Positions 20,804-36,918 of a stretch of 37,882 nucleotides of DNA are shown one piece after another. This DNA comes from Thiocapsa sp. KS1 (GTDB lineage Bacteria > Pseudomonadota > Gammaproteobacteria > Chromatiales > Chromatiaceae). The DNA lies in the NCBI RefSeq assembly GCF_001499735.1, contig NZ_LN848257.1, positions 3,468,013 to 3,505,894 on the forward strand, read 5' to 3'. The notes beneath the pieces were generated by a model. It saw nothing but the letters and a program-made list of their open reading frames with translations, was not told where the DNA came from and made no database searches. Numbering within the stretch: the stretch's first letter is position 1; the number at the start of each line of letters is the position of its first letter. The position numbers and the translations under genes are program-made.

Positions 20804-20870
20804 CTTGCCGGCGAAGACGCGGTTGGTCTTGTCGTCGAGGGCGTCGCGGGCGAGTGGGGAGTTGGTAATA

Positions 20871-20901
20871 GGGTTCGGGGTTCGGGGTTCGGGGTTCAGG
20901 G
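20871..20901. repeat. Tandem GGGTTCR heptamers, copy A
   Basis: Four perfect 7-base units on the plus strand: GGGTTCG three times and GGGTTCA once, then GGG. The array overlaps the last codon of the DUF3368 gene and covers the expected start region of brxL. Same orientation as copy B at 21675. Confidence 0.85.
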
Positions 20902-21396
20902 CTCACCCAAGATGGCATGGAAGGCATGGGCGACCGCTCGCTCATCAAGGCGTAGACCAACATCACGCAGTGCCTGGACCAGCATTGCCGGCGATTCAAC
21001 GCGCCCATCACGCGTAGCCTGCAATACGAGACCCAAGGTGCCCACCACCGGCACACCCAACGCGTGTGCCGCCCGCCGCGCCTCGCGATCATCGATCACC
21101 GCGACAGCACCACTGGTGACCGCCAGACTCAGGACAGCGGTCTCTCCTGCCCCCAACCCCCACTCCATGACCATCGGGAGCACATCGACGTGGATAGGCT
21201 CCCCGAATCGCCCCGACTCGAGAGCGACCCGCGCGGGGTCCTGCACCGGGCCGGCACGAATCTCGTCTGCGACCGCGGATGGAACTAGCAGCGCCTTCGC
21301 AAACTCCCGCAACAAGTCCAGCCGATCGACCTTGCTGAGGACAACGAGTGGGGAGGTGTCGACGACGAGCGCCGTAACAGCAGGCTGTTCAGCCAT
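20896..21396 (-). CDS. DUF3368 PIN-domain toxin
   Basis: 166 residues. PIN-fold ribonuclease-like toxin of a type II pair. The pattern is that of DUF3368: VVDTSPLVVLSKV with the first acidic residue, VPSAVADEI, GAGETAVLSLA, VIDDREARRAA and VVGTLGLVLQA. I used the ATG at 21396, which overlaps the end of the UPF0175 gene by 8 bases; an earlier ATG at 21411 is also possible. It lies immediately between heptamer arrays A and B, so the pair looks like an inserted cassette inside the BREX locus. RNase action is a family-level inference. Confidence 0.85.
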   Translation of the reverse strand: MAEQPAVTALVVDTSPLVVLSKVDRLDLLREFAKALLVPSAVADEIRAGPVQDPARVALESGRFGEPIHVDVLPMVMEWGLGAGETAVLSLAVTSGAVAVIDDREARRAAHALGVPVVGTLGLVLQATRDGRVESPAMLVQALRDVGLRLDERAVAHAFHAILGEP

Positions 21397-21664
21397 TCTC
21401 AGGACCGTCAACGCGTTTCAGCGCATCCAGGTCGGCCAATATCTCTTCCCCGGTCTGCTGGAAAGGTGTCACGCCGTATTCGCCGAGGGCATCGATGAAC
21501 TCGGCGCGGGAAACGCCGGCGATCTCCGCAGCACGGCCCTGACTGACACGTTCCAGTTCATACCACTTCACCGCTGCCGCCAGGCGCAGTTCGCGAACGA
21601 ATTCCTCGGGATCCCGGCGGACGCTGGCCAGAACGCTTGGATCGATGTCGAAGGCTAGGTTCAT
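21389..21664 (-). CDS. UPF0175 family antitoxin
   Basis: 91 residues, typical for UPF0175. A helical N-terminus (VLASVRRDPEEFVRELRLAAAVKWYELERVSQ) is followed by a helix-turn-helix-like block, GRAAEIAGVSRAEFIDALGEYGVTPF, the conserved family core. UPF0175 genes are usually partnered by DUF3368 PIN genes, as here, and act as antitoxin and repressor. The ATG is preceded by GAGG at about 6 bases. The gene begins 4-10 bases downstream of heptamer array B, which probably lies in its leader. Confidence 0.85.
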   Translation of the reverse strand: MNLAFDIDPSVLASVRRDPEEFVRELRLAAAVKWYELERVSQGRAAEIAGVSRAEFIDALGEYGVTPFQQTGEEILADLDALKRVDGPENG

Positions 21665-21674
21665 TGGGGCCTCG

Positions 21675-21705
21675 GGGTTCAGGGTTCAGGATGCGGGGTT
21701 CAGGG
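21675..21705. repeat. Tandem GGGTTCR heptamers, copy B
   Basis: GGGTTCA, GGGTTCA, a degenerate GGATGCG, GGGTTCA, then GGG. Same orientation as copy A, so A and B bracket the UPF0175/DUF3368 pair as direct repeats. Confidence 0.8.
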
Positions 21706-21795
21706 AAAATGTAACGCATCCTGTTGCAGCGAATAGAAAAATCTTAGCGGAGGGTTAACCGATCGAATCTGGAGCAAGTTCTGCCGCACCGGGCA

Positions 21796-21825
21796 CCCTG
21801 AAGCCTGAACCCTGAGCCCCGAACT
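21796..21825. repeat. Tandem heptamers, copy C (inverted)
   Basis: CCCTGAA-GCCTGAA-CCCTGAG-CCCCGAA is the reverse complement of degenerate GGGTTCR units. It lies 7 bases beyond the stop of pglZ and is inverted relative to copies A and B. The 90 bases between B and C (21706-21795) are AT-richer and probably hold the toxin-antitoxin promoter. Confidence 0.75.
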
Positions 21826-21832
21826 CCATCCC

Positions 21833-24361
21833 TCAAATCCCCAGGTTGACCGGCAGTTCGTCGGACTCGGCCAACACGCTGTCCGTATGTGCATCCAGCA
21901 CCACGACGCGCAGCGATTGGCAGGTGTCGTTCGTCAACATCATGCCCACACTCGCCTCGCTCCCCAGCGCCAAGGTCAGGGTGCCGGTCACGCGATCGAG
22001 GTCGGCGCCGACCGCCATCCCGGCGCGCCCGACCTCCTCGGCGCCGGCCATCAGAAGAACGCGGACCAGGAGCGGCTCGGTTGCCAGCAGATCACCCGCT
22101 GCGGCGAGCTTGAGCCCGAAGGTGCGATTGGTCACCGCCGTCGGATAGCCTTCGATGCGCACCTGAATGCCGGGCATCGCGGCCGGTTTGCCGGCGGTCA
22201 GGCGCAGGCTGATCACCGGGATAACCAACTCCTGCAGGCTGAATCCGCCATGGTGGAAGCTCAAACCCCCGCCGGCCTTGAAGACACCGAGACCGCTCGG
22301 AAAGACCGCATCCAAATCGGTCCGATAACCGAGCTCGGCGCAGGGCACGCGCACCGCACCCGAGGGCGTGCTGCCGCCGTGTCCGATCCAGCAGCGCCGA
22401 TGCAGATCCAGGGTGACCCCGCCGGGGCTGTCGGTCTTCATGTCGTCGTCCTTGCGGATCGAGAACTGGTGCCCGTGATCGGCCGTGATCACGAAACGCT
22501 CGATACCGGCGGCGGCGAGCTTCTTCACCGCGCGGGCGAGGTTGCCGATGAGACTGTCCATGATCTGGCGCGCGATCAGGTCGACGTCCATCTCGCCGAC
22601 GAGATCGATCTCCTGAGAGCGGATCACGACCAGCGGCGCCGTGCCGATCTCCTTCGCAACCTTGGCCTGAGCGCTGTCGAGCAGCTTGCCCAACGTCATC
22701 TCCACCGCGTCCGGGACCTTGGTCTTGAGAAAACGCATGCGGTCGGGTGATTCCTTGAGCTCGGTGCCTTCGATCCGTGCCGCGAGCTTCCCCTTGGCGT
22801 CGACCACGTCGAAGCTTGCCGCCGCTCCGGGCAATAGCGCCGCCATGCCGACCGGGGTGATCGAGGGCAGCGCCGCGATCGCCGCGCGCACCGTCAGATC
22901 TCTGGCCCCCTCGATCTGGCGCGCCAGCTCTACGCCCATCTCGTAGCGCATGGCATCGGCGAGGAAATAGGCGACCCGTCCGCCCATGGTCTGCACGACC
23001 TCCGGATAGATGCGGGTTTGGTGCAACACCCCGGCGACGGTCCACCCGGACGCTCTGAACGCCTTGGTAAAGCCGTCGGCCATCGCGCGCAGCAGATGCT
23101 CATGCTCCTGCCGAACAACGGCCAGGGCCTGTTCCGCCTCGGGCTCGTCGTCCATCCCGGCTACCCAGGTCTCCAGCCGCCGCCGCAGACCGTCGGCACG
23201 GTGCCATCCGTCCTCCGCGACATAGGCCGCCAGCCACTTCGCGGGATCGTTTCCCATCCGGCCGAGCGCCGACCGAATTCCCTCCAGCGCATGCCCAAGC
23301 TCGGCCATCAGCCGACAGGCGCCCCACTGCGCCTGGCGTCGTACGTCGCGGTCGACCCAGAAACTGCGCACGCGCGCGTCGATGATCGCGAGTGCCGCGT
23401 CGTAGCCTTTTCCGGCAATCAGCGCCGCGGCATGGGCAAGGAGCCGCTCCTCCTCGAAACGGAAGGTGTCGATGGCACCCAGGTTTGCGGCCTGGATACC
23501 GGCCCCGCGAGACCCTGGTCCTGTTCTACGGAATCCGCCAGGCCGATGTACGCATCCGGGAAGCGCCGTCGCAGACCCTCCGCGATATCGCGGATACGCT
23601 CGGCGTGCTCCTGGCCCGGTGGGTCCGGCACCATCCCGATAAATTTCGGCGGCGCGCAGGAGAGATCGGCACGGAACTCGTTCACCAGCACATAACGGCA
23701 GGTCCTCTCGCGTGCCTTCGAGAGACTTGAGTCCGCCGTGAGGTCCAGGCCCAATCGGACCTTGATCAGCTTGAGCAGCTCGGGCAGCGCATCCTTCTCC
23801 AGCAGGGCCCCGTCCTTGGCGTCGGACGCCAACCACTCGGTTAGCAGCACCTCGCCTTGGGCGCCGCCGAACAGGGTGTGGAGCACCGAAGCCACCTGTC
23901 CGCCCTGGCCGAGGAAGGCAACGATATCGTCATAGGTGACTGCGGAGGGCCTCAGCATCTCGTCGATCTGCCCGTCGGTGAACCGCTGCCGCAGCACGTT
24001 GAGCCCCAGCCGCTTGAGTTGCGGCTCGTAGCAGGTTCCGGCCCGCTCCAGCTCCATCAGCACGGAGCCCTGCCGATCCTTGGCAATGCCCGGCAGATAC
24101 AGGATCAAGGGTTCCGGCTGATCGGCCGCCACGATCGACTCGACCGCCCCGCGCAGACCGAAGAAGCTGCCTTCGTAGCGGGCGAGAAAGGGGGAGCTGG
24201 TGCCGATCGTCACACGCGGCAGCGGACCGCCATCGAGCAGCTCCAGCTCACGGTCGAAAAAGGGGGGTGAATTCACTGCGCGGGTCGTAGAAGACGACCA
24301 CCGAGCGCCTACGGAGCAGGTCGTCCAGGTGCCGGCTAAGGTAGTCGTGGAAAGGGTGCAT
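21833..24361 (-). pseudogene. pglZ: pglZ of BREX, split by two compensating frameshifts
   Basis: PglZ is the alkaline-phosphatase-fold component of BREX. Reading starts at ATG 24361 (MHPFHDYLSRHLDDLLRRRS), runs to the G6 tract at 24262-24267, shifts frame (one extra base), continues with FFDRELELLDGG through FPDAYIGLADSVEQDQGLAG, then shifts back at the C4 tract 23503-23506 (one base missing) into GIQAANLGAIDTFRFEEE and onward to 21833. Corrected, it would encode about 842 residues, normal for PglZ. Metal-site motifs are intact: YFLADAMRYE and ITADHGHQF. Both shifts lie in G/C runs, so they may be sequence errors; otherwise the gene is dead. The rest of the frame has no stops, which favours recent damage or error. 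Confidence 0.8.
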
Positions 24362-26060: not shown

Positions 26061-26789
26061 CTAAATGGAGGTCGTTTCCCCGGGCAATCGATTCCTGGGG
26101 ACGCTTACGAGCGCATGGATGTCACGGCAGTGGCAGACGAGATTTTCATGCTCATCGACGAATCGCCTCAAGGGCGTATCGATTTCGTAGAAATGGATGT
26201 TGGCAATGAAGCCATAGATGTTGGCGTCGATGCTGGTTGGCGTGTCGCCATGTGCGTAGCCCTGGGTCGGAATAAGATCGGCGAGCACCCCCAGATCGGC
26301 AAGTCCGCGCGCCATCGCATCATCGGGCTCGTAACGGCCGATGCCCTGAAAGTAATAGCGCTGGCGGTTGAATTCCTTGGCCTTGAGCAGATCGTCGTCG
26401 GTCAAGCTCGGGTGCTCGCGTTTCAGTGCCGAACTGAAGGCGGGCCAGTAGCGATCGTCCTGCCAGCGTGAATAGGACATAACCCAGTAAAGATCGTCCA
26501 GCATGCGGGTCATCAGCAGATTCGTGTTGCGCTGTGAGCGGGTGAGTGCGGAATCGATGGTCAGGCTATGCTTGCGGATGAGATAGGCAATGATGGTTTC
26601 GCTGTCCCCAACCGTATCGCCGTCGTCGACAATGTAGGGGAGCTGGCCGCGCGGAGCGTTCGATGAGTCGAAGATGTGCACATGCTCGAATTGCAGCCCG
26701 ACGAGCCGTAGGAATGCGTAAACCTTCAGCCCATAGGCATTGTTGTCTGCAACGCCGAACAGCGACGGGAAAGAATAGAGCGTCAGCAT
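26061..26789 (-). CDS. Metaxin-like glutathione S-transferase family protein
   Basis: 242 residues. N-terminal thioredoxin-like domain: LTLYSFPSLFGVADNNAYG, KVYAFLRLVGLQFEHV, APRGQLPYIVDDG and GDSETIIAYL, the last being the Glu-Ser dipeptide that binds the glutathione gamma-glutamyl group in this superfamily. The C-terminal half is helical (RMLDDLYWVMSYSRWQDDRYW, GLADLGVLADLIPTQGYAHGD, TSIDANIYGFI). The DNNAYG start and the SIDA block match the metaxin/failed-axon-connections-like subgroup. There is no Cys or Tyr in a typical catalytic place that I can identify. It lies 310 bases downstream of the CocE-type hydrolase in the same direction; a functional link to the NHLP genes is possible but unproven. 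Confidence 0.78.
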   Translation of the reverse strand: MLTLYSFPSLFGVADNNAYGLKVYAFLRLVGLQFEHVHIFDSSNAPRGQLPYIVDDGDTVGDSETIIAYLIRKHSLTIDSALTRSQRNTNLLMTRMLDDLYWVMSYSRWQDDRYWPAFSSALKREHPSLTDDDLLKAKEFNRQRYYFQGIGRYEPDDAMARGLADLGVLADLIPTQGYAHGDTPTSIDANIYGFIANIHFYEIDTPLRRFVDEHENLVCHCRDIHALVSVPRNRLPGETTSI

Positions 26790-27099
26790 CGTGCATTCTC
26801 CGTTGTGGACTCAGGATCGCTCGGAGCTGTCACTGCCGAGCTTGCCAGCGCCGGTGATACAGAAGGAACTGCCGCGCTTATCGCCAGACACATCCGGGAA
26901 TGGAAGCCGCTCTTCAGGGCGGCCCTGGCGGCGACGCCGACGGCCGCGAGGGCCCCGGTCCCTCGGTAACGACCGAGGTCCGTATTGCCTGCGCTTGGTC
27001 CATACGGCAGAGCCAGACTCCAAGCCATCGAGGGATAAGGACCGGTCTTCGGCTTGTTGGCCGGCCGCCGGAGAGCGCTCCTGCGCCCTCCGCCGAGGT
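26790..27099. other. 310-base spacer between hydrolase and GST-fold gene
   Basis: No gene recognised. It contains one hairpin, CCTCGGT-AACG-ACCGAGG (26961-26978), near the middle. It may end the hydrolase transcript, which would leave the GST-fold gene as a separate unit. The codon-like composition on the minus strand suggests possible remnant coding, but no family was recognised. Confidence 0.45.
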
Positions 27100-28893
27100 C
27101 TAGGCCGCGCTGCGCTGCCGCATCTGGATGAAGCTGTCCGGGCCGTAGTGCAGGGTGTTGCGCGAAAAATAGGGCGGCACCTGCATGTCGAACTGGGCGT
27201 GCCCGTGGCTTACGTCGCTGCGCAGGAGATCGGTGCGGCTGGCGATGTCCAGGCGCAGTCGCTCGCCCGGCTTCAGCACCACCGGCTGCGGCGTGAGGCT
27301 GAAGCGAAGCGTCACCGGCACGCCCGGCACCAGGGGCTCGGGCCGATCGATGTCGATGGCGATCTCGGTGGCGGTGGAGCGCGCCTCGTCGATCCTGCGG
27401 CAAGCCGGGCGGATCGTACCCAGGGACAGGAGCTGGTAGGAACCGTCCGCCAAGACGAGGCCGGTGCGGGCCACCACGTGGGAATCGATCTCGTTGGAGC
27501 TGAAGGAGAGGCTCAGGGTCACAGGGCCGGTCAGCTCGATTTCCTCCTCGACGCCCATCTCGTAGCTGAGGCACTGGTTGGCCACCTCGTCGAAGCCGGC
27601 TGTCACCGTGGCGCCGAGGGGGACGGCTGCCCATCGGTTCGCCCCGGTCTGTCCCGGCTCGCGGACGAGCCGGTGCGTCTCGGCATCCGCTCCGTTCGAG
27701 CCCAGGTAGAGTCGAATCGGCGTGCTCCCCGGAATCGGCCAATCGTCGGCAGATCCATAGACACCGGCGCCTTGCGTCCAGTATCGCACCCGGGCTTGCG
27801 CGGAGTAGCCGTTGTCGGCTCCGTAAAGAAGGTAATCGAAGAAGGCGAGGGCCTCCAGCTGCCAGTGATAGACCGGCAGATCGTAGCTCGCAGGTCCGAC
27901 GATCAACCACCTTCGATCGCGCGGGGTGCCCGCATTCTCGAACAGGTCGTAAGCACCGAACTGGTGCAGGTTGAGGTAGCCCGGATTCTGTACCACCACG
28001 AATGGAACCACGATGTCGGAGAGCCTGCCGCTCGGGCCTTGAGGCATCGGAAAGGTCGCCCGTGTCTTGCCGTCGAGCATGAGCTCGGCGAACAAGTCCC
28101 GAGTCGCCCGTGTCGGAATCTGCCGCTGGAATCCCTTCATGATCCGCGTCATGCGCTTTTTCAGCTGCGGCCACCACAGCCGCTTAAGCGGCGAGTTGGT
28201 GATGTGGCTCACCAGCGCGCGGACGAGCGGCGACACGCGCAGGGCGAACTGAAACGGCGTGAAGTTCGCGCCCATCCAGAGCGCGAAGAAGTCGGGCTGC
28301 GGCGCGCCGCCGAACATGGCGATGTGGCGGAAGAAGTCCGTGCACATCTCATTGGCGAAGAAGCCCTTCAGCGCGGGCGGACGAAGGCGAGCGACCTGGG
28401 GCTGGGTCAGTCCGTAATAGGAGGTGCCGAAGAGCACCACCTGCCCATCGCACCAGGGCTGCGCCGCGGCCCAGGCGATCGCTCGGGCGTAGTCTTCCAC
28501 GTCCGTGTCGTTGAGATAGACGGCCTCGGCCCCGCCGGAACGCCCCATGCCGCGACGGGCGACGATGACATGGACATAGCCCCGGTCGGTGAAGGCCGGC
28601 GGGCTGCCGGTTTCGTTGCTGCCCGCGGGTACGCCGGCGGCCTGCAGCTCCTTCGAGTAGGCCCCAAAGGAGACGATGGCCGGATAACGGGCCGAGACCT
28701 TCGGCAGATAGACGTCCGCCGCCAGGGAGACGGATGGGGCGACCTCGATCGCCTGGTCCGCCAGGATCCGGCAGCCAAGTCCCGATTTCGCCGGCGGGCC
28801 GGGCGTCCAGCCCGCCAGCTGCTCCCCGAAAAGCCCGCCCTTGAGCGGAATGAGGTTGTCCCAAGAACGGCGCTTGCCGCGATTGGCTTTCAT
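27100..28893 (-). CDS. CocE/NonD family hydrolase (X-Pro dipeptidyl-peptidase-like)
   Basis: 597 residues. Serine hydrolase with an N-terminal alpha/beta domain and a C-terminal jelly-roll (about 370-590). Family marks: SLAADVYLPKVSARYPAIV, VIVARRGMGRSGG, DVEDYARAIAWAAAQPWCDG and the nucleophile elbow GTSYYG with Ser158; SYDLPVYHWQLEALAFFDYLLYG follows before the jelly-roll. The family includes cocaine esterase, glutaryl acylases and alpha-amino-acid ester hydrolases. It could cleave an ester, amide or X-Pro bond. ATG 28893 is preceded by GGGGGAGG at about 5 bases. There is no signal peptide, so it is cytoplasmic. It follows the NHLP pair by 94 bases. Confidence 0.87.
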   Translation of the reverse strand: MKANRGKRRSWDNLIPLKGGLFGEQLAGWTPGPPAKSGLGCRILADQAIEVAPSVSLAADVYLPKVSARYPAIVSFGAYSKELQAAGVPAGSNETGSPPAFTDRGYVHVIVARRGMGRSGGAEAVYLNDTDVEDYARAIAWAAAQPWCDGQVVLFGTSYYGLTQPQVARLRPPALKGFFANEMCTDFFRHIAMFGGAPQPDFFALWMGANFTPFQFALRVSPLVRALVSHITNSPLKRLWWPQLKKRMTRIMKGFQRQIPTRATRDLFAELMLDGKTRATFPMPQGPSGRLSDIVVPFVVVQNPGYLNLHQFGAYDLFENAGTPRDRRWLIVGPASYDLPVYHWQLEALAFFDYLLYGADNGYSAQARVRYWTQGAGVYGSADDWPIPGSTPIRLYLGSNGADAETHRLVREPGQTGANRWAAVPLGATVTAGFDEVANQCLSYEMGVEEEIELTGPVTLSLSFSSNEIDSHVVARTGLVLADGSYQLLSLGTIRPACRRIDEARSTATEIAIDIDRPEPLVPGVPVTLRFSLTPQPVVLKPGERLRLDIASRTDLLRSDVSHGHAQFDMQVPPYFSRNTLHYGPDSFIQMRQRSAA

Positions 28894-28987
28894 ACGTGCC
28901 TCCCCCTCTACGTCAGCCTGTCGCCGCCCATGTCTGCTGCGAGCCCGCGCCGCTTGGGAGCCGACCGCCATCCCTTCGCGGGAGCGG

Positions 28988-29356
28988 CTAAGTCTCGGAG
29001 AGATCGAGACCGCTCTTCTTCTGCGAGGCCAGCCTCATCTCGCGCAGGACCCACTTCTGGGCGTCGTCCGGAACGAAGAAACCGCCGATCCCGGACGAGA
29101 ACAGCAGGTCGAAGGACTGCTCCGTCACCCGGACCAGCGCCGACTCGAAGTCCTCGCCTGCCTCCGGCTTGGGCGGCACCAGGATGACGATCGTGTCTTC
29201 CGCCTGCTCGACGATCTCGATCCTCAGATCGGGACCAGGCGTATAGCCAAACTCCTCGCACACGACCGCGACCGGGTCGGCGAGCAGCTTGGCGCGATAG
29301 TCGGGATCGCTTGCGATACGCTCATAGTGTTGCTCGACGAAATCGGCTTCGCTCAC
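28988..29356 (-). CDS. NHLP (nitrile-hydratase-like leader peptide) family protein 1
   Basis: 122 residues from GTG 29356, with GGAGG 7 bases upstream; the start overlaps the stop of NHLP protein 2 (GTGA). Residues 9-61 form the NHLP domain, derived from nitrile hydratase alpha subunit: SDPDYRAKLLADPVAVVCEEFG, then LRIEIVEQAEDTIVILVPPKP. Such domains serve as leader peptides of RiPP precursors. The remaining 60 residues would be the core side, but hold no Cys and are not Ser/Thr-rich. They contain FDLLFSSGIGGFF, matching FDLWSSAGLFVW of protein 2. So it may be a RiPP precursor of an unusual kind, or an NHLP domain reused as a small partner protein. Confidence 0.75.
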   Translation of the reverse strand: MSEADFVEQHYERIASDPDYRAKLLADPVAVVCEEFGYTPGPDLRIEIVEQAEDTIVILVPPKPEAGEDFESALVRVTEQSFDLLFSSGIGGFFVPDDAQKWVLREMRLASQKKSGLDLSET

Positions 29357-29685
29357 GATCGATCCTCCGTTCGGGCGGCGTTGCGCAGGGCCAGGAGCTT
29401 GAACTTGGCGGCGACGGGAACAACCCAGACGAACAGCCCCGCGCTGGACCAAAGGTCGAACTGATTGAGTGGTGCGGTTGGCGTTGGCGCCCGAGGTTCG
29501 CGGGCGGGGGGAATGGTGAAGTAGATCGTGTCGCGTCGCTGCACCACGACCTTCACCGTGACGCCGGACGGCACCTCGACGCCCATGGACTTGAGGGCCT
29601 CGACCGGATCGCGCTCCACCCTTGCGGCGAACGCGTCGTCTGTCCAGATGCGCTTGGTCAGCTCACGTTCGAAATCGCCGGACAT
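29353..29685 (-). CDS. NHLP (nitrile-hydratase-like leader peptide) family protein 2
   Basis: 110 residues from ATG 29685, with GGAGGAG 6 bases upstream. NHLP domain at about 5-60: ELTKRIWTDDAFAARVERD, PVEALKSMGVEVPSGVTVKVVV and DTIYFTIPP, a close fit to known NHLP leaders. A Pro-rich hinge (APTPTAP) leads to a hydrophobic C-terminus, NQFDLWSSAGLFVWVVPVAA, then KFKLLALRNAAR. There is no GG or GA cleavage-type site before a Cys-rich core. The ThDP enzyme gene ends 73 bases upstream and protein 1 overlaps by 4 bases, so all are probably one operon. Function is unknown; see the finding on this cluster. Confidence 0.75.
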   Translation of the reverse strand: MSGDFERELTKRIWTDDAFAARVERDPVEALKSMGVEVPSGVTVKVVVQRRDTIYFTIPPAREPRAPTPTAPLNQFDLWSSAGLFVWVVPVAAKFKLLALRNAARTEDRS

Positions 29686-29758
29686 TGAAGTCTCCTCCAT
29701 CCAGCTGCGATTGCGTTGCGTCGTGCAGACGCCGGTGCCGCCGCGGACCCGGCGGCGG

Positions 29759-31366
29759 TCAAGGCTCGCGATCGAGGATCAGGAAGCTCGGACCGGGATG
29801 GGAGATCGCGCGCGCCAGAACGTCGCCGATCCCGGCCAGATCCTGGATCCGTTCGGTGCGCGCGCCGAAGCCCTCGGCGATCCGCTGCAGATCCACATTC
29901 GGATCGCTGAAGTCCAAGCCGACAAAGCGCGTGGTCTCGATGGTGGTACCCATCGCATTGCACCACAAGTCTTTCAGCAGCCGATATTCGTTGTTCACGA
30001 AGCAGACGAAGATGGAAGGGATGCGGTACTTCGCCGCCGTCCAAAGCGCGTGGATCGAAAACAGGCTGCCGCCGTCGCCCACAAAGCAGACGGCCGGCTT
30101 TCCCGTCGCCAGCCCGATCCCGACGCCGAGCGGCATGGCCCAGCCCAGCCCACCGCCGCGGGGCGAGAAATGCACGTTGCGAAATCCCAAGCGGACAGCC
30201 ATGTCCTGCACGATCGCGTCCTCGGAGGATCCTTCCGTGACGATGTGGGTCGCCCGGTCGAGACGGCGGAGCACGCCGAGGATCAGCGCATCGGTCGGAC
30301 GCTCGCCCGAGGCGGGATAGCGCGCATCCAGCGCCGCCTCGTCGACCGTCCGCGTGCCGGTCGGCTCGGCCGGAGCGCCCAGCGCCGTCGCCAGCGCGTC
30401 CAGGGTCGCACGGATGTCGCCGAGCACCGCCATGTCGCAGGGAAAGTCGAACCCGAGCTGGTTGGCCGCGGGCGCGATCTGGATGACCTGCAGTGCAGAA
30501 GGCAGCGCGGAGAGGCCGTCGTAGGTGAAGCTGTCGACCTTCTCGCCGATCAGCAGCAGGGTTTGGTACCGACCGAGCGTCTCGTTGATCTTGCGCGTCG
30601 TCGGCGGGAGCTGACCGCGAAAGTTGGGATGCAGCGGATCCACCGTTCCCTGAACGTGGAAGGGGGCCGCGTAGAGGTCCGCGCCGAGCCCGGTGGCAAT
30701 GCGGCTTATAGCCTCGATGCCGTGCGCCGCGCCCACGGCATAGTCTGCGACGATGGCGAGCTGGCCCCTGGGCACCGCCTCGAGCGCACCGGCAACCTCG
30801 CCGATGGCACAGGGCACCGTATCCTCGACGATCCGCGTCTTCTTGAAGCGCGTGTGCTCGGTCTGCTCCAGCATGAAGTTCATCGGGATCGACAGGAACA
30901 CCGGCCCGGTCGGCTGGAGCCTTGCCTGCAGGTAGCAGCGCTGCAGGGCGACGGCGAGATCGTCCGTGCGCGTCACCTCGTAGGCGTATTTGGTGGCGGT
31001 CTCGGCCAGCCGGGTGTTGGGCGCACCGAGGACCGGATTGTGGATCAGAAAGCGCGAATCCTGCTGCCCGGCGATCACCAGCATCGGCACGCCGGACATG
31101 AGGGCATTGCGCATGTTGAACATGCCGTTGGCAAGGCCCGGATAGGTGTGCAGGCTGACGATGGACGGCTTGCCCGCGATGAGCGCATAGCCAGCGGCGA
31201 TACCCACGGCGCTCGATTCGTGCAGGGACAGGACATAGGTGGCTTTCGATGCCGCCACCGCCGCCAGGAAGGTCGTTTCCGTGGTCCCGGGATTGCCGAA
31301 GACGAACGGAATTTCGTAGGTTTCAAGGAAATCCTGGATGAGCTCGCCGCCGGTTCGGGTCTTCAT
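29759..31366 (-). CDS. Benzoylformate decarboxylase-like ThDP-dependent enzyme
   Basis: 535 residues from ATG 31366. Three-domain ThDP fold. FGNPGTTE (23-30) matches the GNPGSNE segment of benzoylformate decarboxylase; Glu50 in LHESSAVG is the cofactor-activating Glu; His73 (SLHTYPG) and His246 (LHPNFRG) align with the active-site His residues of that enzyme; the ThDP motif runs from GDG (430-432) to NN (458-459). It probably decarboxylates a 2-keto acid or performs carboligation. There is no FAD-binding sign specific to acetolactate synthase that I can identify. The longer frame to 31438 lacks family features. First gene of the set that continues with the two NHLP genes. Confidence 0.85.
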   Translation of the reverse strand: MKTRTGGELIQDFLETYEIPFVFGNPGTTETTFLAAVAASKATYVLSLHESSAVGIAAGYALIAGKPSIVSLHTYPGLANGMFNMRNALMSGVPMLVIAGQQDSRFLIHNPVLGAPNTRLAETATKYAYEVTRTDDLAVALQRCYLQARLQPTGPVFLSIPMNFMLEQTEHTRFKKTRIVEDTVPCAIGEVAGALEAVPRGQLAIVADYAVGAAHGIEAISRIATGLGADLYAAPFHVQGTVDPLHPNFRGQLPPTTRKINETLGRYQTLLLIGEKVDSFTYDGLSALPSALQVIQIAPAANQLGFDFPCDMAVLGDIRATLDALATALGAPAEPTGTRTVDEAALDARYPASGERPTDALILGVLRRLDRATHIVTEGSSEDAIVQDMAVRLGFRNVHFSPRGGGLGWAMPLGVGIGLATGKPAVCFVGDGGSLFSIHALWTAAKYRIPSIFVCFVNNEYRLLKDLWCNAMGTTIETTRFVGLDFSDPNVDLQRIAEGFGARTERIQDLAGIGDVLARAISHPGPSFLILDREP

Positions 31367-31730: not shown

Positions 31731-32435
31731 ATGGCCACAGCGCAGGAACCCGTCCGCATCGCCGGACCGCTCAAGACCTGGTACGACCTCCACGAGGCCC
31801 TCGGCCACGAGATCGGTGTTCTCGCCGACCTCGCCGCCCACCTGACCCTCGACTCGCTCGACGCGTTCGCCGAGCGGTTCGCTTACTTCGAGCGGGAGCT
31901 GCGCAACCACTCGGAGGTCGAGGACGGGATCATGTTCCCCGCCGTTGCCGAGCGCGGTGGCGCGGTCGATCCGCGACTCGGCGCCGAGCACCGCGAGGAG
32001 CAGGGACGCACCTACGACCTCGGCTGCGCGCTCCTGCATGCCAAGGCAGCCAGGACGCCGGAGGCCCTGGCCGCGCTCGCGGGTGCGACCGCCGCGCTGC
32101 GCGACTCCCTGCGCCATCACCTCGCGCTCGAGGAGGACGAAGTTCTCGGCCAGGTCGATCGTCTCTTTGCGCCCGACGAGCAGGCCCGTTTGCTCGGCAC
32201 CATCTTCTCTGCGCTCCCTGCCGATCCCGGGCTCCAGCCATGGGTCGCCGCTGCCCTCACGCCCGAGCACCTCGAGGCTCGCCTCCGGAACATGGCCGCG
32301 TCTTTGCCCCGGGGCGCGCTGGTCGCGGCGCTCGCCCAGATCCGCGACGGCGTCGATGCCGCAACCTGGGCCGAGGTCCAGTCGCGGACGCCGGATCTGG
32401 CCGCGCTTGCGGCTCCCGACACGGACGGCGGCTAA
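31731..32435 (+). CDS. Hemerythrin-like (HHE cation-binding) domain protein
   Basis: 234 residues. The first 145 form a four-helix bundle with the expected di-iron ligands: His21 and His26 (DLHEALGHEIG), His60 and Glu64 (RNHSEVEDG), His87 (EHREEQ), His129/His130 and Glu134 (RHHLALEEDE). Such proteins bind oxygen, NO or iron, or sense them. The C-terminal 90 residues are helical and of unknown role. GAGGAG lies 11 bases before the ATG. The carotenoid oxygenase remnant starts 5 bases after the stop, so the two once formed an operon. Confidence 0.85.
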   Translation: MATAQEPVRIAGPLKTWYDLHEALGHEIGVLADLAAHLTLDSLDAFAERFAYFERELRNHSEVEDGIMFPAVAERGGAVDPRLGAEHREEQGRTYDLGCALLHAKAARTPEALAALAGATAALRDSLRHHLALEEDEVLGQVDRLFAPDEQARLLGTIFSALPADPGLQPWVAAALTPEHLEARLRNMAASLPRGALVAALAQIRDGVDAATWAEVQSRTPDLAALAAPDTDGG

Positions 32436-32440
32436 GGCCC

Positions 32441-33541
32441 ATGAGCGCACCCGTCTGGACCTCCGACGATCCCCATCTGCCGGGGAACTTCGCGCCGATC
32501 CAGGAGGAGATCGACGCGGCGGAACTCGCGCCGGGCTCCGGCGCCATCCCGCCCACGCTCGACGGCGTGTACATGCGCAACGGCCCCAAGCCGCGCTTCA
32601 AGCCGCTCTCCTATGCCTCTCCGTTCGACGGCGACGGCACATGATCCACGCGCTCGCTCTCTCCGGCAGCAGGGCACATACCGCAACCGGTTGGTACGCA
32701 CCCGCGCCTTCCGGGCGGAGCAACGGGCGGGGCGGGCGATCCACGGCGGGGTGATGCGGCCGCGGCCGGTCGACCCGGCGTCCCTTCGCCCGGGCGACGA
32801 CCCGGGTCCGTTCACAAACGGCGCCTTCATCGACGTGCTCGCTCACTGCGGCCATCTGCCGGTGCTGCCCGAAGCCGATATCGCCTACGCGATGACGATG
32901 GATCTCGGCACCCCGGGCGAGCGGCGGGCGGGCACGGACCGGCCGATTGCCCCGGGGGCTCACAACCGCCGCTATCCATCGACGGGGGCGCTGCTCGCCA
33001 TCGCCTACGACGTGGAGAACCCCTGGGTCGAGCTCCGCCACATCGACACGGGCGGCACGCCGGTGGCCTCCCGCACCGTCCCGCTGGAAGCGCCGACCAT
33101 GATGCACGACTTCGTGCTGACCGAGCGGCACGCGGTGCTGTTCGCCTGCCCGGCTGTATTCGACCTTCAGGCGGCCTTTTCCGGGGGGTCGCCGCTCGAC
33201 TGGCGACCGCAGATGGGAACCCGCATCGCGCTGGTGCCGCTGGACTGATCGCCGCTGCGATGGGTCGATACGAACGCCTTCTTCGTCTTCCATTTCGCCA
33301 ACGGATTCGAGCTGAGCGGGGAGATCGCGATCGACTACGTCCGCCACGCCAACCTCGATCTCGCGGAGCGGGGGAGACAAGGCGGGGATCCGCCGCGGCT
33401 TCACCGCATGAGGATCGATCTCGCGACCGGTGCCGTGCGCGACGGCCGGGTGGATGGCCCGGAAGCGGAGTTTCCTCGCGGCGACGATCGCCACGAGGCA
33501 CGGGCGACGCGCTGGGTCTACTTGCCGACACGCACCGCCGC
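32441..33541 (+). pseudogene. Carotenoid (RPE65/CCD family) oxygenase pseudogene
   Basis: Starts intact at 32441 with MSAPVWTSDDPHLPGNFAPI and LDGVYMRNGPKPRF, PFDGDGT, then stops at TGA 32642-32644. The homologous reading resumes in another frame (TYRNRLVRTRAFRAEQRAG, NGAFIDVLAHCGHL, APTMMHDFVLTERHAVLF) up to a TGA at 33246-33248, where the family needs a Gly (GGA to TGA). It continues in the same frame (NAFFVFHFANGFEL, DYVRHANLDLAERG) to about 33541. The C-terminal part, including the last iron-ligand His region, is missing where mobile-element debris begins. Intact members cleave carotenoids or stilbenoids with an Fe(II) centre. A frameshift, a nonsense codon and a truncation together mean the gene is dead. 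Confidence 0.82.
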
Positions 33542-35038
33542 GCTATCCGGAAAGTCCATCCGGCTGACCATCAGGTCGAACGGCGAGCGTCGGAAAGGTA
33601 CCGACAATATGGTCGTCTCGCCGGCCGCGAGCACGATCCTGCGGGCACCGCCACCGTCGATGCGAACGATGTAGGTTCCAGGCGCCAGCTCGATTGCCGA
33701 ATCGCCCGCGATGCCCGTGGCGACCATAAGGGGTTTGGCGCGACGCTCGCGGTTCTGCACCACCCGTTGGCGATGCCGCTCTTCGTCGTAGGGCGCTCCC
33801 GGATCGCTGTAGTCCATTCCATGGCGAAGCGTGTTGTAGAAGAGCACCGCGAGCTTGCGTGCGGTGGCGGTGATGGCCTTGGACTTGCCCACACCCATCG
33901 CCAGGCGACGATAGCAGGCGCCAAGGGCACTGTCGGTTTTGCCGACGTTGACGGCGGCCAAGCGCAGCAAGGCGCTGGCGCGATTGTGCGAGCGGCGGGT
34001 GCGTGCCGAGAGCACCTTGCCGCCGGAGATCTTGTTGCCGGGCGAGAGGCACAGCCAGGAGGTGAAGTGCTTGGCCGTCGGCCAAGCGGACAGGTCGGTT
34101 CCGCATGCGCCGACGAGCCTGAGCGCCGGAGAGGGGCCGAAGCCGTGGATCTGCGTCGGATCCACGCCGATGACGGCATGCAGCGCGGCGCGAACATCGA
34201 AGTTGACGGCATTGGGCTGGCGAGTCTTGTGCCGGGGGGCGGGCAACGGCTCGGGAGGCGTCAGCTGTGCGAGCCCCGCTTCGATGCGCCGATCACAGGC
34301 GGCGACCCGTTCCTGATCGGCGTCGTAGAGCGCGACCGCCTGCTCCAAGGCGAAGAGGTGCTCGGGTCGATCGTTGCGCTCGAGCGCCTGCGCGATGGTC
34401 TCGACCGATGCCTTGCAGCGCCCGTCGCGATCGCTCGCGAGCACCTGCGGATCCCGTGTCCCGTCAAGAATCGCACGGATGATGCGCCTCCCGGTCTTGC
34501 CGGTGCTGTCGGAGACGACATGGTGCAGCTGCGAATTCATCTGCGTCGGTGCCTTCTGCATGTGCTGGATATGGGAGGCTGCGTCATCGAGCAGACGCTC
34601 GCGCCGGCGCAGGTCGGCGCGCAAGGCGGCGATGTCGCCCGGAGGATGACATCTGCCGCGCAGCAGGCCATAGGCATGCAGCTGCAGTAGCCATCGGGCG
34701 TCGTTGACGTCGGTTTTGCGCCCCGGCACAGGCTTGACGTCGCGGGCATTGACGACGACCACACGGATCCTGCGTGCCTCGAGGATTGCGTAGAGTGCAA
34801 TCCAGTACACCTCCGTCGACTCCATGGCGACCGTCTCGATCCGGCAGGCGACCAGCCAGTCCGCGAGTCGATGCAGATCGCCGGTGAAGCTTCGGAAGGT
34901 GCGCACCGCCTCGGCATCGCACTCCGGCGGGACGGCAACAACATGGAATTCCGCACCGACGTTGATCCCCGCCGCACGGGGATTGACGGTGGACAGCGGT
35001 TCGGCACGACGGCTCTTCTTGGACGGGATCGGCTTCAT
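33518..35038 (-). mobile_element. IS110-family transposase, chimeric C-terminus and altered catalytic site
   Basis: 506-residue frame from ATG 35038. N-terminal DEDD RuvC-like domain: the first acidic position is Asn26 (AAGINVGAEFH) where IS110 members have Asp; Glu73 (AMESTEVYW), Asp110 and Asp113 (GRKTDVNDARW) are present. The C-terminal transposase_20 region shows IHGFGPSPALRLVGACG, AKHFTSWLCLSPGNKISGGK and ACYRRLAMGVGKSKAI. IS110 proteins normally end near VVQNRERRAKPL; here 66 further residues (from about 33718) come from flanking DNA, with an unrelated ELAPGTYIVRIDGG domain piece. The element is therefore truncated on that side and probably inactive. The exact ends cannot be set; IS110 members lack strong terminal repeats and carry a bridge RNA in a non-coding end. 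Confidence 0.82.
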
Positions 35039-35240
35039 GGCATGGCTCTCGACAGGAGAAACAGGATCGAGAGCAGGGACAGCGAGAGCAATCACCTTCC
35101 TATTCGGGATCGCCAAACGGCGTCACCACACGCAGACTCGCAACAGTCCCCGGGCCACGTTTTTTACGGGGTCAGCGCCACCGAAAAGCAGACGGCCTCG
35201 GCTCTCGAAGGCGCCCCAAAGTCTATGCCGAAAGGAGTTT

Positions 35241-35265
35241 GTGCGCCTACAGGAGCGGGGCGCAC
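35241..35265. repeat. Stem-loop in junction DNA between IS110 and IS3 remnants
   Basis: GTGCGCC-N11-GGCGCAC (7-bp stem). The 35170-35276 stretch belongs to neither recognisable transposase. A T6 tract follows at 35277-35282, but that is the A6 slippery tract of the IS3 orfA remnant read on the other strand. Confidence 0.4.
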
Positions 35266-35276
35266 CCCGAGGAGGG

Positions 35277-35602
35277 TTTTTTAAGATCTCGACCTCGCGC
35301 TTGAGACGCGCGTTCTCCGCGCGCAGACGCGACAGCTCCATCGCCTCCGGCGTGACGTTCGCTGCGCCCGCACCGTTGAGCCTGCCGACGTTGAACGCCT
35401 TCACCCGGTTGCGCAGGGCCTGCTCGACCAGACCCATCTCCTTGGCCACCGCGCTTACGCTCTTGCCGTCCTTGACCCGCTTGACCGCCTGTTCTTTGAA
35501 CTCGGCGGTGCACTCTTGCTTCGGAATCTTCCGCATCATCGTCTCCAGTGTGACAGTCAGTCTACGTCACCCTTGGAAGACTAAATTTCGGGGGAACCTC
35601 AC
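35277..35602 (-). pseudogene. IS3-family orfA remnant with left end
   Basis: ATG 35539 or 35536 starts a typical IS3 OrfA: CTAEFKEQAVKRVKDGKSVSAVAKEMGL (helix-turn-helix), then the Leu-zipper part LSRLRAENARLKREVEILK. The reading is cut exactly at the A6 tract (35282-35277 on the minus strand), where IS3 elements shift frame into orfB. orfB is absent and unrelated sequence follows. Upstream, 35602-35583 on the minus strand reads TGAGGTTCCCCCGAAATTTAG, a plausible IS3-type terminal repeat. So this is the left part of a dead IS3 element. Confidence 0.75.
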
Positions 35603-35760: not shown

Positions 35761-36918
35761 TCATTCTTTCGTCGCCGCGTCGAGCTCGGCGTCAAGCGCC
35801 ACCGCCCGGCCGCGCAGGTCCTTCAGCGCCGCGACCGTGGCCTTTGCGCCTGTCTCGCCGACGAAGAACATGTGATTGCCCTGCATGACAATCGTCAGGC
35901 GCGCTGGCGCGCCATAGACCAGATCATTGATCCGTCGCCACCGGTCCGGCGGGAGTTTCAGCAGGTTCTTCACGCGCGCGAACACGTGCGTCTCCGACAG
36001 GTTCTGCGAGATGTAGAAGCCCCAGGTGGAGCGATCCATCAGGGCGTGGCGCGCATCGGCCGCCGCTTCGTGCGTCAGCAGTGCCAGCGGCGGGAAGGAC
36101 GCATATCGCCACGCGCCGGTGCCGTCTTGATCGCCGAGCAGATCGGGCATGAACGCGCTGTTCTCGAACTTGAGCGCGGCGGCCGCGAGCCGGATCGGAT
36201 AGTCGCCCATGAACTGCGCGGGGAAGATCGCGGGATCGATGACGGTGTGTCCGGTCTCGGCATTGCGCTCCCTGAGATTGAGCAGCAGCGCGTCGGTGTA
36301 GGCGCCGGCCACGCCCGCGAGTCCGGAGGGCTGCGGCTTCACCGTCGCAAGCCCCGGCAGGAGATTCGGCAGCGCGGTCGCGGCTGCCATCGCAACGAAC
36401 AACTCGATCTCGATGCCGCGCTTGCGCAGCGACGCCGCGATCGGCTGCGCTATGCGTCCCGCCATGCTCCAGCCCAGCACGACGACGCGGGCGGGAAGAT
36501 CATTCGCCTTCACGTGCCGCGCGACGATCTCGGCGCTCTGCTCGCCCCAGTCGGTCATGGAGAAGTCCGGATAGGCCTTGGCGAAAACCGGATGACCCAT
36601 CGGATAGGAGATGGCGAGGAAAGGAGTCCCCTCCTGCTTCAGCCAGTGCGCGAGAAAGTCGGCCGACCTTCCTTCCGGATGCCCGTAGGCAACGCGCGCC
36701 AGCACACCGCCTCCGGTGATGAAGACGACGAGCGGCGCGTTCGCCGCGCCGGGCTCGAATTTGACAAGAGCGGGATAGCCCGCGGCCTCGATGATCGATT
36801 CGCCGGGATACACGACTTTCTGAGGGTTGGCTCCGGGATGCGGTGCCTGAGCGTGCGCGATGTTTGTCATGAACGCCCAAAGGAGTGCGACGCCGATCCG
36901 ACGGATCTGAACATGCAA
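35761..36918 (-). CDS. Secreted alpha/beta hydrolase
   Basis: 385 residues if started at TTG 36918, which gives a signal peptide (about 1-24, RRIGVALLWAFMTNIAHAQA). The mature protein has an alpha/beta hydrolase fold: APLVVFITGGG near 61-71 (oxyanion side), ISYPMGHPVFAKAYPDFSMTDW, and nucleophile elbow GWSMAG with Ser151. A late His in MQGNHMFFVGE could complete the triad. The substrate is unknown. The frame stays open upstream to 37149, but that part is Pro/Arg-rich and has no family features, and no ATG in frame precedes the signal peptide, so the start is uncertain. The gene is intact although surrounded by mobile-element debris. Confidence 0.72.
   Translation of the reverse strand: MHVQIRRIGVALLWAFMTNIAHAQAPHPGANPQKVVYPGESIIEAAGYPALVKFEPGAANAPLVVFITGGGVLARVAYGHPEGRSADFLAHWLKQEGTPFLAISYPMGHPVFAKAYPDFSMTDWGEQSAEIVARHVKANDLPARVVVLGWSMAGRIAQPIAASLRKRGIEIELFVAMAAATALPNLLPGLATVKPQPSGLAGVAGAYTDALLLNLRERNAETGHTVIDPAIFPAQFMGDYPIRLAAAALKFENSAFMPDLLGDQDGTGAWRYASFPPLALLTHEAAADARHALMDRSTWGFYISQNLSETHVFARVKNLLKLPPDRWRRINDLVYGAPARLTIVMQGNHMFFVGETGAKATVAALKDLRGRAVALDAELDAATKE

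Follow-up and report, generated by a model that had tools for sequence, protein, structure and literature searches.

We describe a conserved, apparently undescribed bacterial gene set that is built around two adjacent genes for small paralogous proteins, here denoted N1 and N2, and that came to light in a 37,882-nucleotide stretch of the genome of the gammaproteobacterium Thiocapsa sp. KS1 (contig NZ_LN848257.1, forward-strand positions 3,468,013 to 3,505,894; hereafter, the window). Both proteins resemble NHLP domains, which are usually taken as a sign of a pathway for ribosomally synthesized and post-translationally modified peptides (RiPPs), as well as the alpha subunit of nitrile hydratase. 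The comparisons presented here indicate that N1 and N2 probably are not RiPP precursors; instead, we favor, at a probability of about one in two, the interpretation that they form a heterodimer equivalent to a split, metal-free nitrile hydratase alpha subunit and serve catabolic cassettes as an adaptor (or subunit) that binds small molecules. No account of the pair or the cassette was found in the open literature searched, most subscription papers being outside that search. In the window, the gene set consists of the following features:

29759-31366, minus strand: thiamine diphosphate (ThDP)-dependent enzyme, subfamily a (benzoylformate-decarboxylase-like), Pfam TPP_enzyme N, M and C domains
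29353-29685, minus strand: N1, NHLP/nitrile-hydratase-alpha-like module (about residues 1-60) and conserved tail (NQxDLWxS...FxW...K..LL..R)
28988-29356, minus strand: N2, paralog of N1, NHLP/nitrile-hydratase-alpha-like module and conserved tail (DxLxxxGxGGxxxPDD...W.LR.MR)
27100-28893, minus strand: CocE/NonD-type hydrolase, subfamily a, 184.6 bits with TIGR00976
26061-26789, minus strand: glutathione S-transferase (GST)-fold protein, GST_N_4/GST_C_6

These five open reading frames had been singled out by a preliminary inspection of the DNA without database searches (the sequence-only reading), and their coordinates, common strand and gaps of 73, -4, 94 and 310 bases are all confirmed, the start of N2 overlapping the stop of N1 by 4 bases. 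Among the names given at that stage, those of the ThDP enzyme, the CocE hydrolase and the GST-fold protein are supported by Pfam and NCBIfam models; the NHLP labels hold only below the cut-off of TIGR03793 (39.6 bits for N1 and 24.9 bits for N2, cut-off 50.9), and the scores with the Pfam NHase_alpha model are below its cut-off as well (22.7 and 23.5 bits, respectively, cut-off 27.2).

Relatives of the gene set were collected with N2 which, unlike the ThDP enzyme, proved to be a productive query; searches with the latter gave nothing at E<=1e-80 in 193 other genomes of the family or in plasmids, and nothing at E<=1e-85 in 397 other sampled genomes of the phylum. Among the 17 plasmid records matched by N2 are four from Methylocystis (79-80%), five from Streptomyces (42-53%) and one from Neorhizobium (40%); six Rhodococcus records match weakly, and five of these are annotated as nitrile hydratase alpha. 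The pair is present in five of the six plasmid regions that were taken, and the sixth, from Azospirillum B510, encodes ordinary NHLP precursors that served as the control set. When named genomes were scanned with an alignment of six N2 sequences, 111 stretches matched; 50 of these encode relatives, from Alphaproteobacteria, Gammaproteobacteria, a deltaproteobacterial metagenome-assembled genome (MAG), many Actinomycetota, Cohnella and Paenibacillus. The window, the five plasmid regions and these 50 stretches make up the 56 loci analyzed below. Co-occurrence outside close relatives had been set beforehand as the test of the gene set, and the 55 loci beyond the window span three phyla, Proteobacteria, Actinomycetota and Bacillota. 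The family is rare: the N2 profile matches 5 of 369 genomes of the class at E<=1e-6, strongly in only two, the Thiocapsa genome itself (a 10.38-Mb assembly of 43 contigs) and one other (G958).

N1 and N2 are both found in 53 of the 56 loci and in every case are adjacent and on the same strand, the two matches overlapping by up to 2 bases or being separated by at most 167 bases. In two of the exceptions, L057 and L060, the N2 match is partial, and in the third, L061, the called reading frame joins pieces of a monooxygenase and of N2. In Gulosibacter, N1 and N2 are fused in a single 267-aa reading frame, and in eight loci, all from Streptomyces, N1 forms the C-terminal part of a 266-318-aa fusion with a RidA domain, considered as a possible imine deaminase, the nearest solved relative of which is 5v4f. 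N1 aligns with N2 over the whole length, with invariant Gly, Pro, Asp and Arg residues common to both (47-row alignment); judged from this alignment, the two are full-length paralogs. The distances among N1 and among N2 proteins are correlated (rho 0.74, n=39; the best of 500 permutations gives 0.17). The locus of Nocardia transvalensis (L032, 9582-12578) contains two oppositely oriented N1-N2 pairs within 3 kb, which adjoin an alpha/beta hydrolase and a primary-amine-oxidase-like gene.

A census of the genes within 9 kb of the pair reveals a recurrent assortment of partner enzymes. A monooxygenase is encoded in 28 of the 56 loci, CocE in 26 and the ThDP enzyme in 24 (both of the latter in 23), an alpha/beta hydrolase in 19, RidA in 17, a cupin in 11, a nitrilase, a pirin and an FAD lactate-dehydrogenase-like protein in 8 each, rubredoxin and a tautomerase in 7 each, and a GST in 5; CocE or an alpha/beta hydrolase is found in 44 loci. 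Given these frequencies and the constant adjacency of N1 and N2, the gene set is more than a chance assembly. The pair is not tied to the ThDP enzyme as the sequence-only reading had it: other clades adjoin a flavin monooxygenase, RidA, an alpha/beta hydrolase or a nitrilase. On the N1-N2 tree (45 loci), the presence of the ThDP gene changes at least five times.

The 24 ThDP proteins of the loci fall into two subfamilies, a with 10 members and b with 14, which are 26-31% identical to each other, and the 25 clustered CocE proteins likewise into a, with 22 members, and b, with 3, at 24-28% identity to each other. All four combinations are seen next to the pair: a/a in the window, ThDP-b with CocE-a in Methylocystis, b/b in Streptomyces goshikiensis, and ThDP-a with CocE-b in L048, a contig of a Propionibacteriales MAG. 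The gene order differs as well, being ThDP-N1-N2-CocE in the window and in Xanthobacter, and CocE-N1-N2-ThDP in S. goshikiensis and Actinomycetospora; the distances of N1 and CocE are correlated (rho 0.78, n=17; best permutation 0.51). Because distinct subfamilies of both enzymes repeatedly pair with N1-N2, a functional link between the ThDP enzyme, CocE and N1-N2 is indicated, and we consider this repeated pairing to be the best argument that the genes form a functional module.

The window ThDP enzyme contains the three TPP domains and matches the benzoylformate decarboxylase model best, nearly over the full length, with the Glu, His and GDG positions kept as in that enzyme; unlike benzoylformate decarboxylase, it scores below the equivalog cut-off (288.6 bits, cut-off 493), and subfamily a has Thr in the place of the Ser of 4q9d, a benzoylformate decarboxylase of solved structure. 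The Glu, His and GDG positions are kept in all 24 ThDP proteins of the loci; we take the Glu and GDG to belong to the ThDP site and the His to the active site. The window enzyme is 79-86% identical to the ThDP enzymes that adjoin N1-N2 in Chelatococcus, in Xanthobacter and in two MAGs, one alphaproteobacterial and one of Roseiarcus, and 59% identical to the ThDP enzyme of L048. The window hydrolase resembles cocaine esterase and other CocE/NonD hydrolases in exceeding the family cut-off (66.3 bits) and in containing the GxSY nucleophile motif; it is 54-84% identical to the 21 other proteins of subfamily a, and its nearest solved relatives are 3ib3 and 3iii. GxSY and an LH motif are present in all 25 clustered CocE proteins; the Asp and His motifs that we presume for cocaine esterase were not seen in these 25 proteins, the alignment of which to cocaine esterase stops short of that region.

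Further partners vary among the loci. The nearest solved relatives of the Cohnella monooxygenase are polyketide oxygenases, and that of the Neorhizobium nitrilase is NitA (6zby). In L055 and L062, the two loci where such genes were scanned for, there are transporters of the MFS and DMT types and IclR- and MarR-like regulators. Several loci add a phenolic acid decarboxylase (cluster size 7) and UbiD (cluster size 5), which were scanned in L014 only. The Xanthobacter-type monooxygenase has no match in the Thiocapsa genome at E<=1e-20, a search that had no positive control and shows little.

The relationship of N1 and N2 to NHLP precursors lies in the N-terminal module. The general NHLP model, TIGR03793, matches all 41 N1 sequences and 24 of the 27 N2 sequences at E<=0.01, and N1 and N2 share this module with the NHLP/proteusin precursors (Haft et al. 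2010, PMC2887384); unlike those precursors, they have no Gly-Gly motif at the end of the leader, no hypervariable core and no RiPP enzyme among the scanned neighbors. The sequence-only reading had taken the two proteins for NHLP leaders carrying a peptide to be modified, and this part of it is not supported. The ELSDEELEAVAGG-type (VAGG-type) cleavage motif, searched with the pattern [LV]xx[VIL][AST]GG, occurs in none of the 41 N1 and none of the 27 N2 sequences, and the GxGG stretch of N2 lies inside the conserved tail. The tails, which contain variable stretches too, are not variable cores: columns of zero entropy are D77, W79, F85, W87, L98 and R101 in N1 (41 rows) and P64, D83, L85, G89, G92, P96, W102, R105 and R108 in N2 (27 rows). 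The mean column entropy of leader and tail is 1.36 and 1.70 in N1 and 1.62 and 1.60 in N2, compared to 0.25 and 1.77 in the eight Azospirillum control precursors, which are paralogs on one plasmid, so that the leader-to-core contrast alone is comparable. The pN/pS values, uncorrected proportions from 19 sequences each of the window and its close relatives, are 0.28 for leader and tail of N1 alike and 0.25 and 0.30 for the two parts of N2, so that the constraint on the tails resembles that on the leaders. The fusions of RidA to N1 and of N1 to N2 also speak against a leader followed by a peptide to be modified.

The genomic surroundings point in the same direction. As the sequence-only reading had noted for the neighborhood, there is no YcaO gene, and this holds for the entire Thiocapsa genome, in which also no NHLM transporter (TIGR03796) scores over the cut-off. 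YcaO was also sought in 29 other genomes, drawn from the 50 scan loci, and is present in 14 and absent from 15; of the 18 YcaO places, out of 22, that were compared, 15 are on other contigs than the pair and three, in two genomes, are on the same contig at a distance of 0.2 Mb or more, whatever the contig orientation. No RiPP enzyme was recognized among 39 representative neighbor proteins scanned, a few of which have no family match at all; these 39 include no LanM and no radical SAM protein, for neither of which was a genome-wide search made. On these tests of motif, core, neighbors and genome, a role of N1 and N2 as RiPP precursors was set aside.

Other NHLP matches were noted along the way. 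In the Thiocapsa genome, a short lone reading frame (contig C1, 337393-337575; 89 aa, 60.6 bits) has a Cys-containing end, transposase-like reading frames around it and no RiPP enzyme recognized by eye nearby. Farther along the same contig (about 351.5-362 kb), there is a thiocyanate-hydrolase-like gene set, the NHLP-matching subunit of which, at 354 kb, contains CTLCSC; a cyanase-like reading frame and ABC transporter genes are close to it, all these names coming from inspection of the reading frames and not from a family scan. On the plasmid of Azospirillum sp. B510, the leaders of the eight encoded NHLP precursors are nearly identical, and the cores that come after VAGG differ.

A second described relative is the NHLP-Burk family (TIGR03795, BMA_0021/BMA_0022) which is reported to occur as tandem pairs that are fused in some species, lack the Gly-Gly motif and sit near cyclodehydratase genes (PMC2887384). 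N1 and N2 resemble these pairs in the tandem arrangement, in the Gulosibacter fusion and in having no Gly-Gly motif, and differ from them in scoring far from TIGR03795 and in the lack of any RiPP enzyme among the scanned neighbors, in contrast to the cyclodehydratase genes. Specifically, window N2 scores 16.5 bits (cut-off 41) and window N1 is absent from the matches, and only 1 of 41 N1 and 4 of 27 N2 sequences match at E<=0.01.

The similarity to nitrile hydratase provides a different perspective. The N1/N2 module is similar in sequence to nitrile hydratase alpha and thiocyanate hydrolase gamma; unlike these, N1 and N2 are split over two genes, have an extra conserved tail and lack the metal claw. 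In the PDB, both the N1 profile (best E-value 8.7e-9) and the N2 profile (2.9e-9) match alpha chains of nitrile hydratase, and in the three best chains (1v29_A, 4zgd_A and 4zgj_A), the N1 profile matches at two consecutive places, in 4zgd at residues 45-96 and 118-166, each place being weak on its own (i-Evalue 0.012-0.036). A single nitrile hydratase alpha chain thus may consist of two NHLP-like modules, a possible internal repeat, and N1 plus N2 may rebuild this two-module arrangement. The claw motif CxxCxC (CxxCSC in nitrile hydratase alpha) is found in none of the 41 N1 and 27 N2 sequences, Cys is present in 12 and 15 of these, respectively, and there is no His among the columns conserved at 90% or more in either alignment.

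Under the interpretation that we prefer, N1 and N2 would be paralogous subunits of one protein, each with an NHLP-type module and a conserved tail, and not peptide precursors. The module would be the one found in proteusin leaders and also, probably in two copies, in nitrile hydratase alpha. N1 and N2 together would rebuild a metal-free nitrile-hydratase-alpha-like body, and the asymmetric, Trp/Phe-rich tails could form one small-molecule pocket. The partner enzymes act on small molecules, among them the ThDP enzyme as a 2-keto-acid or C-C lyase and the monooxygenase as an aromatic-ring-type enzyme; the cassettes are thus predicted to degrade or detoxify aromatic or 2-keto compounds, the substrate and reaction of the individual cassettes being putative. 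In the lineage of the window, the predicted heterodimer would serve CocE, a hydrolase of the ester/amide type, and a ThDP lyase of the 2-keto-acid type. It most likely would hold a reactive pathway intermediate, acting as an adaptor rather than a catalyst, and hand it to the hydrolase, hydrolases being the commonest kind of partner. A leader reused as a scaffold, as suggested at the outset, also is a possibility. The broader proposal, namely that N1-N2 is a new protein class, an obligate heterodimer of two NHLP modules, equivalent to a split, metal-free nitrile hydratase alpha, around which, as the catalytic or substrate-handing core, exchangeable catabolic cassettes are built in three or more phyla, is more tentative and somewhat less probable.

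Several observations weigh against the adaptor interpretation. AlphaFold models of the single chains, which were folded because alignments for the N1-N2 fusion misplaced rows (N2 rows on the N1 half or the reverse), are weak, with mean pLDDT of 70.4 for N1 and 65.1 for N2; the leader helices are modeled best and much of the tails poorly. Foldseek searches with the two models gave nothing at E<=0.001, the top matches being a nuclear magnetic resonance structure of a proteusin and nitrile hydratase alpha for N1, with E-values above 0.3, and another proteusin for N2 (E-value 1.3). An obligate partner would explain weak single-chain models, which is not proof of one. Furthermore, 12 of the 56 loci have neither CocE nor an alpha/beta hydrolase in the census, and 8 (L021, L030, L033, L042, L049, L051, L053 and L060, several of them short contigs or contig ends) have no CocE, alpha/beta hydrolase, ThDP enzyme, monooxygenase or nitrilase, with the qualifications that in L021 a PHB-depolymerase-type esterase adjoins N2, in L042 an alpha/beta hydrolase of another type is on the opposite strand, and in L053 two ThDP fragments are on the other strand. 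Among the 26 CocE proteins, that of L032 matches weakly and does not fall into the cluster formed by the other 25. The distances of N1 and the ThDP enzyme are weakly correlated (0.40, n=17; best permutation 0.35), support is poor for several deep branches of the tree and contig ends may inflate the five changes of ThDP presence, and the a/b combination is known from a single contig of 5.6 kb. Finally, the genome scan relied on two N2-tail peptide patterns, so the conservation of the N2 tail is partly built in; N1 played no part in the retrieval.

The main rival of the adaptor interpretation, unlikely on balance and nevertheless the one that we take most seriously, is that N1-N2 is itself a cofactor-free two-subunit enzyme, of the hydratase, isomerase or ring-opening type, which would perform a step beside the monooxygenase or ThDP enzyme and the hydrolase. 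Each subunit has conserved polar and aromatic residues of its own (Y55, W79, W87 and nearly K94 in N1; R21, E47, W102 and R105 in N2), which would fit one asymmetric site, and the pair stays constant while the neighboring enzymes change. The scarcity of Cys, the missing CxxCxC and the lack of conserved His count against catalysis, and we know of no enzyme with a nitrile-hydratase-alpha-like fold that works without the metal claw. The near-invariance of K94 and S81 in N1 would also suit a covalent carrier, close to the example given by the sequence-only reading. An acyl or keto-acid group would be attached to a conserved Lys or Ser in either subunit, processed by the ThDP enzyme and set free by CocE. 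The compact CocE-N1-N2-ThDP set of S. goshikiensis and a PapA_C acyltransferase-like gene in seven alphaproteobacterial loci agree with such a scheme; however, no other loading enzyme (ligase, acyl-CoA or phosphopantetheinyl) was found among the 39 representative neighbors scanned, and many loci of other clades lack the ThDP enzyme, so that we regard a carrier as improbable.

A little less probable still is a RiPP-type precursor with an invariant core, for instance one that yields a cofactor or a two-peptide product, in the manner of the tandem NHLP-Burk pairs. The NHLP homology, the GxGG stretch of N2, the YcaO genes elsewhere in 14 of the 29 genomes and the tandem pairs and fusions reported for NHLP-Burk (PMC2887384) all lend themselves to this idea; it is at odds with the lack of a VAGG-type motif, the lack of YcaO in the Thiocapsa genome and 15 others, the scanned neighbors without a RiPP enzyme, and the position of RidA in front of the supposed leader. 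That the pair is an unrelated mobile passenger beside catabolic genes appears the most remote of these explanations: five loci are plasmid-borne and some are near transposases, but the same types of enzymes recur although the gene order varies and their subfamilies are distant, and there are RidA-N1 fusions.

The window contains additional genes that could belong to, or have disrupted, the gene set:

31731-32435, plus strand: hemerythrin-domain protein (PF01814), divergent from the ThDP gene, possible associate
33518-35038, minus strand: IS110-family transposase (PF01548, PF02371), between the gene set and the 35761-36918 protein
35123-35539, minus strand: HTH_Tnp_1 transposase reading frame (PF01527)
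35761-36918, minus strand: protein without a Pfam match, possible distant associate, separated from the gene set by the two transposase genes

A homolog of the hemerythrin-domain protein, 66% identical over 218 aligned residues, adjoins the ThDP gene of the same subfamily in L048, and homologs of the 35761-36918 protein, 52-56% identical, are encoded in seven other N1-N2 loci. The GST-fold protein (GST_N_4/GST_C_6/Tom37; top NCBIfam model isoprene-epoxide GST, 107.3 bits, cut-off 300) had been considered the weaker link of the set; it recurs next to N1-N2 in four other loci, namely, both Methylocystis plasmids, Methylocapsa and one alphaproteobacterial MAG (5 of 56 with the window). Because these three genes have homologs in other N1-N2 loci, the window set may belong to a larger cassette into which insertion sequences have intruded. 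Elsewhere in the window, a carotenoid-oxygenase-like (RPE65) gene (32441-33248, plus strand) is present as two pieces in different reading frames and ends near the IS110 transposase gene. On the minus strand, 18830-24276 carries BREX-type genes, including BrxL (926 bits in PADLOC), the N- and C-terminal parts of PglZ in two separate reading frames and, between PglZ and BrxL, a PDC-S70-type protein; this BREX-type locus looks decayed or partial.

In this family of NHLP-module proteins, parts of the tail are fixed, the proteins occur in pairs and the genes follow degradative-looking enzymes. If the proposed role is correct, the fold of a RiPP leader has a second career in metabolism, and the N1 and N2 genes could be misidentified in RiPP mining; confirmation would add a protein family with a new role, along with a possible class of false positives for such mining, and would provide testable genes in culturable Xanthobacter and Streptomyces. 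Moreover, because two parts of nitrile hydratase alpha each resemble one NHLP module, N1 and N2 may bear on the origin of this subunit.

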